Shown here piece by piece: positions 30,599 to 42,635 of a DNA stretch of 64,000 nucleotides (the first letter of the stretch is position 1; each line of letters begins with the position of its first letter). The notes under the pieces were generated by a model that was given only the letters and a program-made list of their open reading frames with translations, did not search any database and was not told the origin of the DNA. Origin of the DNA: Gemmatimonadaceae bacterium (lineage in GTDB: Bacteria; Gemmatimonadota; Gemmatimonadetes; Gemmatimonadales; Gemmatimonadaceae); the NCBI GenBank assembly GCA_019752115.1, contig JAIEMN010000024.1, positions 124,001 through 188,000 of the forward strand. The letters are read 5' to 3'. Made by a program: the position numbers and the translations under genes.

Positions 30599-32152
30599 GT
30601 GCAACCTCGTCTTGCGCTCCACTTCGATCTGACGCCGCGTGCTGCGGCGACGGATGCCGACGCCGCCTTTCTTGCGGCGTGCGTTGCCTGGCTCGGTCTT
30701 GACCAGGGTCAGCCCCTCAACTGGGACGCGCCATCCAACCACACGCTGGATGGTGGGCGCATTCTCCGCTGGGCGCCGTTCCGCACGCCGACCGCGGCGC
30801 TGGCGGACATCGTGGTGCACGCGCCGGATCCGCTCGATCGTGCCCTGCAGTGGTCCACCCATGTCACCTACGTCGTCACGACCAGCGCCTCCGGCGCGGT
30901 CCAGCGTCAGGTCAACATCCGGGTAGGCACCGAAGGGGGCGCCAACAACGGGGCACCGCCGCCGGTTCGCCCGCCGCGCCTGCTCGCCGAACTCGACGCC
31001 GCGTTCACGCTGGTCTCGAACGATGGCCCGCTGCAGCGCGTCCCGACGCAGCTCGAGGCCGGCACGCTCGACGCCTTCGTGCGCTTCGTGCTCTGTGATC
31101 CGGCGCGCACGATGCCGGTGCTGCTCCTCACCGAACTCCCCGACGGCGGCTACGTGTTGCCGCCCGAGCAGTTCGCCGCCGAGATGTTCGGCCTGGGGCT
31201 CTGCTTCCAGCTGCGCCACTCCGACACCTTCGCGCTTTCCGATGCCGTCGGCGGGCATGCGCGCTCAGTCTTCCTCGGCTCCGCTCGCGCGTACCTGCCG
31301 GGCTTCACGCTCGAGTCCGATCCGTTCCAGCACCCGCTGGTGCTGGCGCGCGCGCTGGCCCTCCCCGGTGAGCGCCGCCGCCTCGTGCAGCGCCTCGCCG
31401 AAGTGTCGGTGCAGCGCCCATTCTCCGATCCGGCCATCGCCGACGAACTGCGCGACAAGCGCGCCGAGGCCTACAGCAAGCGCCCCGACGCCGCCGAAGC
31501 CCTCGCCGCCGCCGAGTCGGGCGTCGAGATGGACAAGTCGCAGTTGCTCGGCCTGATGCGCCAGCTTGAAGAAGCGGTGCGTGCCGCCGAGGGGGAGCTC
31601 GCGCGCACGCGCGAGCGCCTGAACGAGTCCCGCTCGCAGCTCGAAGCCGAACGCGCCGCCGCCCGTGCGCTCCGCACGACGCTCGCCGCGCTCAAGGAGC
31701 GGCAGCCGATCAGCAAGCCCGCCTCCGATGCCCCGCAGTCGGTGCTGGAAGCGGTCGAACGGGCGCAGGCGCTCTACTCCGACGCCCTCCGCATCCTCCC
31801 GTCGGCGTTTGTCTCGGCGCGCGAGAGCGAGTTCCCCGACCCCGACACCACGTGGGCGTATCTCAAGGCGCTCGGCGAAGTCGGTCGTCGCCGCCAGGAT
31901 CGCGCCCTCGGTCGCCCGCTCGGCGAAGTGTTTGCCGACCTGGGCGTCGACTACTCCCCGGGCCCCAGCGATCCCGCGCGCAAGACGCCGTATGTCTTCC
32001 GCGACGCCGACCGCGAAGTCGAGTGCGCCGATCAGCTCCGAAAGGGCGCCAACCCGCAGACGTGCCTCCGCATCTACTTCGCGAGCACGGAAGACGGCGG
32101 GTTCGTGATCGGACACGTGGGACGGCAGGTCGATACGACGGGCGCAAAGTAA
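30599..32152 (+). CDS. unknown 517-residue protein with central coiled coil and compact C-terminal domain
   Basis: I do not recognise this protein. The first 290 residues are mixed alpha/beta with no membrane segment or signal peptide. Residues about 315-375 form a strongly predicted coiled coil (MRQLEEAVRAAEGELARTRE). The last 110 residues hold a compact domain with an acidic FPDPDTTWAYLKALGEV, a cysteine pair around CADQLRKGANPQTC, and a beta-hairpin-like end (LRIYFASTEDGGFVIGHVGR) that recalls small RelE/ParE-like toxin or nuclease folds. This last comparison is weak. GTG 30599 is the start because the frame and composition hold from there. It is divergent from dtd and ends at an 80-bp palindrome. 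Confidence 0.75.
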   Translation: MQPRLALHFDLTPRAAATDADAAFLAACVAWLGLDQGQPLNWDAPSNHTLDGGRILRWAPFRTPTAALADIVVHAPDPLDRALQWSTHVTYVVTTSASGAVQRQVNIRVGTEGGANNGAPPPVRPPRLLAELDAAFTLVSNDGPLQRVPTQLEAGTLDAFVRFVLCDPARTMPVLLLTELPDGGYVLPPEQFAAEMFGLGLCFQLRHSDTFALSDAVGGHARSVFLGSARAYLPGFTLESDPFQHPLVLARALALPGERRRLVQRLAEVSVQRPFSDPAIADELRDKRAEAYSKRPDAAEALAAAESGVEMDKSQLLGLMRQLEEAVRAAEGELARTRERLNESRSQLEAERAAARALRTTLAALKERQPISKPASDAPQSVLEAVERAQALYSDALRILPSAFVSARESEFPDPDTTWAYLKALGEVGRRRQDRALGRPLGEVFADLGVDYSPGPSDPARKTPYVFRDADREVECADQLRKGANPQTCLRIYFASTEDGGFVIGHVGRQVDTTGAK

Positions 32153-32232
32153 ACCCACGACCCAGAACGAAAAACCCGAAACCCTGAACTGATCAGTTCA
32201 GGGTTTCGGGTTTTTGGTTCTGGGTCGTGGGT
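32153..32232. repeat. 80-bp near-perfect palindrome filling the gap between two convergent genes
   Basis: The arms 32153-32192 and 32193-32232 are complementary over 40 bases with a single mismatch (32169 against 32216) and no loop, centred on TGATCA. It begins the base after the stop codon of the unknown gene and ends five bases before the prfC stop. Each direction carries a run of five T or A (32170-32174, 32211-32215), so it can act as a bidirectional intrinsic terminator, but the stem is far longer than a terminator needs. Confidence 0.9.
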
Positions 32233-32237
32233 CTAGG

Positions 32238-33881
32238 CTACGGCGCCGTCTCATGAAACTGCACCGTCGTCTCATGCTGCAACGCGCGGCGCAACGCCCA
32301 CTGGTCCTGGAAGAGCACGACGATGTTGCCCTTGTGGTCGTAGACCTTCATGCGCCCGAGGCCGGTCGCGACCTTCTCGACATCCGCCTTGGGGCCGGTG
32401 AGCCAGCGCGGCCAGCGGTAGCTCATCTTTTCGAACTTGCACGGGGCCGAGTACTCGTACTCGAGGCGGAAGGCCATGACGTCGAACTGCAGCTGCCCGA
32501 CGGCGCCCACGATCGGCTGTGAGCCGGCGCTGGTCTCCGCGTAGAACACCTGCGCCGCGCCTTCCTCGGTGAGCTGACGGAGGCCGATATCGAACTGCTT
32601 GCGCTTCATCGGATCGGCCGGCATCGCGCGGGCAAAGTGCTCCGGCGCGAAGCGCGGAATGCCCTGAAACTCGAGCTTGCCGTCGCCACCGAGCGTATCG
32701 CCGATACGCAGGTTGCCGCGGTCCATGACGCCGATCACGTCGCCCGGCCACGCGTCTTCGATGGCCACGCGATCACGCGCCATGAACTGCTGTGGCGCGG
32801 CGAGTCGCATGGGCTTGCCGGTGCGCTGATGCACCACCTGCATGTTGGCTTCGAAGTGCCCCGACACGATGCGCAAGAACGCCACGCGATCGCGGTGCTT
32901 CGGGTCCATGTTCGCCTGGATCTTGAAGACGAAGCCCGTGAAGTCCTCGCGATCGGGCGCGACGGGCCCCGCCGTCGATTCGCGCGGCCCCGGGGGCGGC
33001 GCCAACTCGAGAAACTCCCGCAGAAACGGCTCGATCCCGAAGTTGGTGAGCGCCGAGCCGAAGAACACGGGCGTGAGCGCCCCGTCGATCACCCGCTGAT
33101 GCTCGTACTCATGACCGGCCGCATCGAGCAGTTCGATATCGGTCATCAGGCGATCGAACGCCCCCTCGCCCATGGCATCGATGAGCTTGGGGTCGTCGAT
33201 GCTCACGATGGTATCGTCGGCGCGCGTGGCCCCGCGATCGCCGCTGCGCTCGAAGAGGTGAACTTCGCGCTTCAGGCGATCATACACGCCCACGAAGACG
33301 TCGTTCTCGAACACCGGCCAGGTGGCGGCATAGCAGTCGATGCCGAGGTCGGCTTCGACATCCTGAATGAGCTTGAGCGGATCTTCGCCGTGTCGGTCGC
33401 ACTTGTTGACCAGCGTGAAGATCGGCGTTCGCCGCATCTTGCAGACATCGAACAGCTGCCGCGTCCGCTCTTCCACGCCGCGGCGGTTGTCGAGCAGCAT
33501 GATCGCGCTGTCGGCCGCGACCAGCGTGCGGTACGTGTCTTCGGAGAAGTCTTCGTGACCGGGCGTGTCGAGCAGGTTGAGCTGATAGCCGAGGAACTCG
33601 AACTGCAGCACCGAGCTCGTCACCGAGATGCCGCGCTCCTGCTCGAGCTTCATCCAGTCCGACGTGGCGTGGCGCGTGGCGCGACGCGCCTTGACCGAGC
33701 CGGCCAGGTGAATGGCGCCGCCGTACAGCAGCAGCTTTTCGGTGAGCGTCGTCTTGCCGGCGTCGGGGTGCGAAATGATCGCAAACGTGCGCCGACGCGA
33801 GATCTCCCGCTGCAGGCGGGAGTGATCCACGGGCGCAGCGGCGTCGGTCGGCGGCGTATCGGGCTGGACAGCGTCGGTCAT
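32238..33881 (-). CDS. prfC: peptide chain release factor 3
   Basis: 547-residue translational GTPase that recycles RF1/RF2 from the ribosome. G1 is ISHPDAGKTTLTEK, the switch regions include GISVTSSVLQF, G3 is LDTPGHEDFSEDTYR and G4 is VNKCDRHGEDP. The C-terminal domain III shows GAVGQLQFDVMAFRLEYEY. Start is ATG 33881; the extra 19 codons upstream include part of an inverted repeat and are not used. Same strand as glmM-glmS-Fpg, after a 126-base gap with a hairpin. Confidence 0.95.
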   Translation of the reverse strand: MTDAVQPDTPPTDAAAPVDHSRLQREISRRRTFAIISHPDAGKTTLTEKLLLYGGAIHLAGSVKARRATRHATSDWMKLEQERGISVTSSVLQFEFLGYQLNLLDTPGHEDFSEDTYRTLVAADSAIMLLDNRRGVEERTRQLFDVCKMRRTPIFTLVNKCDRHGEDPLKLIQDVEADLGIDCYAATWPVFENDVFVGVYDRLKREVHLFERSGDRGATRADDTIVSIDDPKLIDAMGEGAFDRLMTDIELLDAAGHEYEHQRVIDGALTPVFFGSALTNFGIEPFLREFLELAPPPGPRESTAGPVAPDREDFTGFVFKIQANMDPKHRDRVAFLRIVSGHFEANMQVVHQRTGKPMRLAAPQQFMARDRVAIEDAWPGDVIGVMDRGNLRIGDTLGGDGKLEFQGIPRFAPEHFARAMPADPMKRKQFDIGLRQLTEEGAAQVFYAETSAGSQPIVGAVGQLQFDVMAFRLEYEYSAPCKFEKMSYRWPRWLTGPKADVEKVATGLGRMKVYDHKGNIVVLFQDQWALRRALQHETTVQFHETAP

Positions 33882-33915
33882 AGCCTTGAAAGTTAGCGGA
33901 TCCTGGCGCGTTTTT

Positions 33916-33994
33916 GGCCACGGATACCGCGGAAACACACGGGGTCAGCCTTGTGCACGGGACGGCACCGCGCGTTTCCGTGGTATCCGTGGCC
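33916..33994. repeat. imperfect inverted repeat in the prfC leader
   Basis: Arms 33916-33936 and 33974-33994 (21 bases each, one mismatch) flank a 37-base loop in the gap between the Fpg/Nei-like gene and prfC. On the minus-strand mRNA this would form a stable hairpin 35 bases before the prfC start, either a terminator-like element or an mRNA-processing site. The arm sequence is unrelated to the palindrome at 32153. Confidence 0.8.
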
Positions 33995-42576: not shown

Positions 42577-42635
42577 GAACGGGACAACTCACGAGGATTC
42601 GCGCCACGCGCCGACCTTCGTGAGTTGTCCCGTTC
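42577..42635. repeat. 18-bp inverted repeat with 23-base loop upstream of purD
   Basis: Arms 42577-42594 and 42618-42635 are perfectly complementary over 18 bases. It lies 31 bases after the M48-like stop and about 65 bases before purD, so it may terminate the upstream transcript or structure the purD leader. No T-tract follows. Confidence 0.8.

Follow-up and report, generated by a model that had tools for sequence, protein, structure and literature searches.

The 80-bp palindrome studied here, which lies in a window of 64,000 nt (the whole stretch of DNA that was analysed), is not a lone feature but one of about 60 copies of a dispersed repeat family in a Gemmatimonas genome. It is probably a head-to-head dimer of a non-autonomous, REP/BIME-like repeat that serves, at this site, as a bidirectional transcript-end hairpin. 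The family, its basic unit, the forms in which the unit occurs, its placement relative to genes, and its presence or absence at orthologous junctions are described below.

Anatomy and stability of the palindrome

The original prediction was of a loopless 80-bp palindrome with one mismatch that takes up 80 of the 85 bases separating two convergent genes, and base-by-base inspection agrees with it. The palindrome extends from 32153 to 32232, its 40-nt arms meet without a spacer, 39 of the 40 positions are paired, and the sole mismatch is G32169/G32216. It is abutted by the TAA stop codon of a gene on the + strand (30599..32152) that encodes 517 amino acids without a Pfam match, and on the other side lies prfC, the gene for peptide chain release factor 3 (RF3), on the - strand (32238..33938). 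An inverted-repeat search of the window placed the palindrome in a slightly wider repeat, with 43-nt arms (32150-32192 and 32193-32235) that are 95% complementary and again lack a spacer, while in the runner-up among the close inverted repeats of the 64 kb the arms are 28 nt long and 86% complementary. This second repeat, at 42577-42635, has a 3-nt loop and a sequence unlike that of the GATC-headed family. The palindrome is far beyond chance: its RNA fold has an energy of -76.2 kcal/mol (z = -12.95), with none of 200 shuffles being equally stable, and its DNA fold has a z of -13.8.

The inverted repeat and the edges of 54 aligned copies define the window copy as a dimer of subfamily A that begins with ACCC and ends with GGGT. 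At its centre is a 14-bp palindromic head, GAACTGATCAGTTC, at 32186..32199, which has AACYGATCRGTT as its core and is shared by the two halves. According to the sequence and the unit consensus, one half-unit reads rightwards on the + strand (32193..32232), through half of the head and then a heptad tail, and its opposite-strand copy occupies 32153..32192 on the - strand. Sequence and fold also delimit an inner stem-loop at 32175..32210, flanked by AAAAA (32170-32174) and TTTTT (32211-32215), a layout that resembles a bidirectional terminator and in which the A- and T-tracts pair with each other. A simple terminator scan gave no site at the palindrome, and the comparison with Rfam gave six matches, every one of them below the gathering scores.

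A dispersed family built from one half-unit

A blastn search of the palindrome's own genome (5.17 Mb in 83 contigs) returned 82 matches, both strands counted, and a covariance model built from the 54 copies returned 119 matches over both strands, corresponding to about 60 sites. The core AACYGATCRGTT is found 74 times in the 5.17 Mb, where base composition would predict 0.30 occurrences. Two subfamilies are distinguished among the aligned copies, namely A, with 39 copies of 80 bp including that of the window, and B, with 15 copies of 86 bp. The edges of the elements are sharp, at 40 or 43 nt on either side of the centre, and beyond them most copies are unrelated in sequence.

The basic unit of the family is one half of the palindrome, of about 40-47 nt, and consists of the head followed by a directional, G/T-rich tail made of five heptads of the form NNGNGTT. 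From the centre outward, its consensus reads TCAGTTCaGGGTTTCGGGTTTTTGGTcGTGGGTTGTGGGTT in subfamily A and, in the two related genomes G028 and G001, TCAGTTCCGGGTTgTGGGTTcGGGTTtTGgGTTGTGGGT and TCAGTTTCGGGTTcTGgGTTCAGGTTtCGAGTCgTGAGTT, respectively. The halves occur in three arrangements: head-to-head with one common head, which gives the loopless palindrome of 80 or 86 bp; tail-to-tail, which gives an inside-out hairpin; and single. We counted 50 head-to-head copies with a strict cut of 0.72 G/T on both sides, by which several slightly decayed copies fall into the single class. Single halves and tail-to-tail pairs were found by searching for heads with one tail only, and the 13 tail-to-tail pairs comprise eight detected automatically and five with a mutated partner that were added by eye.

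Some additional arrangements and repeats were observed. Two copies have a split or duplicated centre, in which two GATC heads are separated by a short spacer or the head is duplicated in tandem (L070:3672-3764 and L054:2515-2607), and palindromes of the AACCGCGG type are located at or beside the tail junction of some half-units (L182 about 2555, L197 about 2595, and L183 about 2570). Long inverted repeats with CACAGAG-type units form a second family in the same genome (L073:3918-4017, L091:1119-1241, and L069:3173-3270), and there is a third repeated hairpin, TCAGGGGGGAGAGCTCAGGAC...GTCCTGAGCTCTCCCCCCTGA (L064:3496-3545, L088:1278-1326, and L092:823-864). We also considered G-quadruplexes as a conserved feature and rejected them: the canonical motif, with loops of up to 7, is found in 10 of the 30 arms of subfamily B and 0 of the 78 arms of subfamily A, and relatives vary at the middle G of several heptads.

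Placement relative to genes

Gene contexts were taken from a codon-score gene caller made for this analysis, which is not a standard annotation. The 53 copies examined have 106 sides, 50 of which have a gene 3' end within reach. On 31 of those 50, the distance from the centre to the end of the stop codon is 39-44 nt, which places the stop at the edge of the element. Stops inside the element were also found, six of them at 20 nt and one at 11 nt from the centre. TAA accounts for 23 of the 31 abutting stops, compared with 11 of the 51 genes of the window (Fisher p = 2e-5, computed with 22 of 31).

The 50 head-to-head copies are distributed as 21 between convergent genes, 25 between tandem genes, and 4 between divergent genes. 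Their convergent share exceeds that of the other junctions of the window, where 6 of 53 are convergent (p = 6e-4). Two of the checks suggested by the original prediction, namely a search for further copies of the palindrome in the genome and another for long palindromes at other convergent 3' ends, gave positive results. Among the copies sampled in relatives, 10 of 20 are convergent in G028 and only 6 of 20 in G001.

The 13 tail-to-tail pairs comprise nine in tandem contexts, three in convergent ones, and one in a context that could not be assigned, and their main site is the operon-like spacer. According to Pfam, two of these spacers are tuf|rpsJ and sufBD|nifU. A gap of less than 45 nt to the next start was found for 6 of the 9 tandem tail-to-tail pairs, in comparison with 5 of the 25 tandem head-to-head copies (p = 0.03). 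Convergent placement alone does not differ significantly between the two forms (p = 0.34). An integron or cargo element was rejected, since closely spaced copies enclose what appear to be ordinary genes of the chromosome, as confirmed for one by its Pfam match (SRP54/Ffh) and judged by eye for the rest.

Transcript ends and the orientation of the units

Read as RNA in either direction, a head-to-head element of subfamily A presents an A-tract, a GC-rich inner stem, and then UUUUU. In the tail-to-tail form there is no downstream U-tract, because the G/U-rich arm precedes and the A-rich arm comes last. The difference between the two orientations in the gap to the next gene is, with small numbers, the strongest indication that the head-to-head form is relevant to transcription.

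We propose the following model. Two units inverted about one common head would generate the loopless palindrome, and the dimer would land, or be tolerated, at gene 3' ends directly past the stop codons. The transcripts of the 517-aa gene and of prfC would both fold into a very stable hairpin, with UUUUU after the inner stem either way, and this hairpin would end transcription and shield the 3' ends of both mRNAs. Termination is not expected of the tail-to-tail form, whose A-rich side is downstream, as would suit its occurrence in operon-like spacers. From its anatomy, its placement, its orientation, and the replacement of such elements by other hairpins at the same junction in other species, we infer that the window copy is most likely a bidirectional transcript end for both of its convergent neighbors.

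At least four T at positions 19-23 are found in 55 of 78 subfamily A arms, in contrast to 6 of 30 B arms, 2 of 40 arms in G028, and 0 of 40 in G001. Since few arms outside subfamily A have the T-tract, we do not claim intrinsic termination for the whole family, and other members may be barriers at 3' ends or sites for proteins, or may have no activity. The occurrence of the same unit in two orientations provides a natural test, with a U-tract downstream at the ends of transcription units and none inside operons such as tuf-rpsJ.

Divergence of the arms

The two arms of a copy appear to change independently. Private changes in subfamily A affect one arm in 25 cases and both arms in 1; in subfamily B, the values are 17 and 6, and all six belong to the deviant copy L076. 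Counted over the whole family, there are 244 both-side changes compared with 88 in shuffles, and much of this excess separates subfamilies A and B. The arms of the head-to-head copies in the genome of the window match at 0.854 within a copy and at 0.803 across copies, the maximum of 2000 shuffles being 0.826. For tail-to-tail arms, the match is 0.774 within a pair and 0.796 across copies, based on seven of the eight automatic pairs, since the eighth belongs to the other subfamily. Neither G028 nor G001 has an arm-arm match significantly higher than that of shuffles; with the comparison confined to variable positions, the observed value is reached by 142 and 156 shuffles out of 2000, respectively. 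Given the 25:1 ratio in subfamily A and the lack of a significant excess in these two relatives, we do not claim compensatory selection on the stem. A fold-back origin of the head-to-head copies is supported only in part, by the within-copy excess in the first genome, which is not significant in the other two.

The simplest reading of these comparisons is that head-to-head copies would start near-perfect and then decay arm by arm, and the window copy, with its one mismatch, is therefore best read as young. This affects the original view that such palindromes are usually unstable and that the maintenance of this one is notable: the copy is indeed near-perfect, but the argument is weak since copies appear to decay arm by arm. 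In E. coli, also, palindromes become lethal only at lengths greater than 80 bp. SbcD-like matches at E <= 0.001 are present in 29 of 30 genomes of the genus, and those above the curated cut-off in 4 of 30, the genome of the window not being among these.

Distribution and orthologous junctions

The covariance model has matches in 21 of the 30 genomes of the genus, in the form of related, species-specific families. The core pattern was detected in 12 of 61 genomes, all within the genus. Within the order, 17 of 151 genomes have model matches, eight of them inside the genus and nine outside, the latter with one or two weak matches each. Elsewhere in the genus there are long palindromes of the same heptad style with other centres, of the AGCGCT or CACGTG type (L134, L135, L137, L138 and L139, L140, L142), which suggests that Gemmatimonas lineages may have switched heads.

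At the prfC junction, inspection by eye of 16 orthologous loci in relatives identified a GATC-headed palindrome with different arms in six (L107, L110, L111, L112, L114, and L120), unrelated hairpins, some with T-tracts, in seven (L109, L113, L115, L117, L118, L119, and L121), another long inverted repeat in L106, and nothing evident in L108 and L116. A further relative assembled as a single contig, L210, also has a related palindrome at this junction. After another orthologous gene, a CACGTG-centred element is located right at the stop codon in three loci (L166, L168, and L172), and in L167 and L170 a short plain spacer without an element precedes the same next gene.

Of the 40 elements sampled from G028 and G001, six are flanked on both sides by the same genes as an element of the window's genome, the prfC junction of L210 included, and the arms at these six orthologous junctions are no more alike than random pairs. 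The elements may have been gained independently or may have changed in concert, and the arm comparison fits either. Since elements are present at some orthologous junctions and absent from others, it is possible to trace across the genus how a terminator-like element was gained and lost.

Mobility and alternative explanations

Target-site duplications of at least 2 nt, which would be expected of a MITE, are no more common than in shuffled flanks, under four choices of edge in 39 subfamily A copies, and the Pfam model of RAYT transposases (PF01797) has no match in the genome of the window, whose assembly is 97% complete. With neither of these signs, we infer mobility only from the dispersal of the family and from its presence or absence at junctions. 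An autonomous relative with the same ends, as a MITE would have, was sought among the matches inspected in the same 83-contig assembly, and separated arms were not observed, the one small split centre being that at L070:3672-3764. A viral vehicle was rejected, as the pattern ACCCNNAACTGATCAGTTNNGGGT gave 0 matches in viral_contigs. As a tentative and rather doubtful extension of our model, the family might represent an undescribed class of mobile extragenic repeat moved by a non-RAYT enzyme. By snapping back, the head of a half-unit would serve as the primer from which its own tail is copied, and a perfect loopless palindrome would result; lineages would have switched the head (GATC, CACGTG or AGCGCT) but retained the heptads of the tail; and the cell would sort the elements by orientation, with the terminating form at gene ends and the non-terminating one in operons.

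It is unlikely that the family is a purely selfish dispersed repeat without a role, for which convergent sites would simply be the least harmful places of insertion. The independent decay of the arms, the absence of a significant arm-arm excess in the two relatives, and the four copies in divergent gaps are consistent with this explanation. However, a stop codon abuts the element in 31 of 50 sides, other species have unrelated hairpins instead at the prfC junction, the head-to-head and tail-to-tail forms differ in operon-like gaps, and the inner stem of subfamily A pairs somewhat better than the outer one (0.886 and 0.840), all of which argue against a repeat without a role.

We consider it quite unlikely that the elements form a protein-binding array, in which a nucleoid, topology, or chromosome-organising protein would read the head and heptads and the hairpin would be incidental. 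BIMEs are said to be read by gyrase, IHF or Pol I. The conservation of the head and the G/T framework across species, with variable linkers and no significant covariation in G028 and G001, would agree with such an array, as would the positive supercoils that accumulate at convergent gene ends, according to the discussion of REPs in the available text of PMC1525189. There is, however, no candidate protein, the units number only about 60-100, and the A5/T5 tracts kept in subfamily A would be needless for a binding site.

The hypothesis of a REPIN mobilised by a RAYT, an IS200/IS605-like Y1 transposase, is disfavoured as very improbable. The dimers, both head-to-head and tail-to-tail, and their hairpin-forming capacity point in this direction, and 8 of the 30 genomes of the genus have one PF01797 gene each. 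Nevertheless, the gene is missing not only from the genome of the window but also from G001, G022, and G028, which are, beside it, the genomes with the most copies; the unit has no GTAG/GTGG tag as described for REPs; and four inspected RAYT loci have either an unrelated hairpin, TTCAAGGGGTCAGAGTCGTTGAA (three loci), or none (one locus). This hairpin, near the RAYT-like genes of relatives (L144:2077-2156, L145:1112-1162, and L146:2148-2198), is a REP-like pair of the ordinary type and has no relationship to the GATC units.

Chimeric reads can produce loopless palindromes, but the chance of an assembly fold-back artefact, which together with absence in close relatives was to have refuted the original prediction, is negligible and we exclude it, given about 60 dispersed copies with different arms and unique flanks, and related palindromes at the prfC junction of independent assemblies (6 of 16 orthologous loci, and the single-contig L210).

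Comparison with known systems

Subfamily A resembles bidirectional intrinsic terminators in its layout of a GC-rich inner hairpin with an A-tract before it and a T-tract after it, which in the window copy was discerned by eye. It differs from them by its repetition throughout the genome, by the lack of the T-tract in most other members of the family, and by an additional stretch of about 17 base pairs beyond the tracts. The original prediction was right to see here an over-long, loopless hairpin between convergent genes.

The inverted pairs of DNA-uptake sequences (DUS/USS) in Neisseria and Pasteurellaceae also consist of a short repeat inverted in close pairs at gene ends, where they form terminator hairpins, and the available text of PMC1852404 gives such motifs a length of 9-11 nt and generally 1000 or more copies. 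In contrast, the Gemmatimonas family has a 40-nt unit, no link to competence, and about 74 exact head cores in 5.17 Mb, below the hundreds to thousands of copies that characterise uptake sequences. The G-rich heptamers of Xanthomonas (GGGAATC, or GGGANTN) and Nostoc (GGGGA(T/C)T) resemble the tails in being intergenic G-rich heptads, and 70-75 inverted pairs of them are reported per Xanthomonas genome. In the available text of PMC4692102, their description includes a variable number of units and no conserved palindromic head, and gives a central place to G-quadruplex potential, which is not conserved in the Gemmatimonas family.

The literature searched on palindromic, intergenic, and terminator repeats in Gemmatimonas or Gemmatimonadetes, on REPs, REPINs, bidirectional and uptake-sequence terminators, heptad palindromes, and the inviability caused by long palindromes does not, in its available text, describe this family, and the main text of the REP survey PMC12306157 has no word beginning with "Gemmatimon". 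The closest similarity is to REP/BIME/REPIN elements, which, as portrayed in the available texts of PMC3116915, PMC3733652, and PMC2817692, are likewise dispersed, extragenic, species-specific, and hairpin-forming, are often near convergent genes, and occur as singles and as head-to-head or tail-to-tail dimers. REP units end in a GT(A/G)G or CGTC tag, according to the accessible portions of PMC2817692 and PMC3733652. This tag (GTAG/CGTC) is absent from our unit consensus, which has GAACTGATCAGTTC as its head and GGGT(T) as the end of its tail. The Gemmatimonas units also differ in that they share one palindromic head without a spacer, their arms are heptad tails, one unit alone does not make a long hairpin, and the genome has no RAYT. 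The elements described here are REP-like dimers that lack both the tag and the transposase usual for REPs, and they occur in a phylum for which the literature searched, as far as its available text extends, describes none; they have in common with REPs and REPINs the defining organisation of dispersed, extragenic short repeats arranged as inverted, hairpin-forming dimers.
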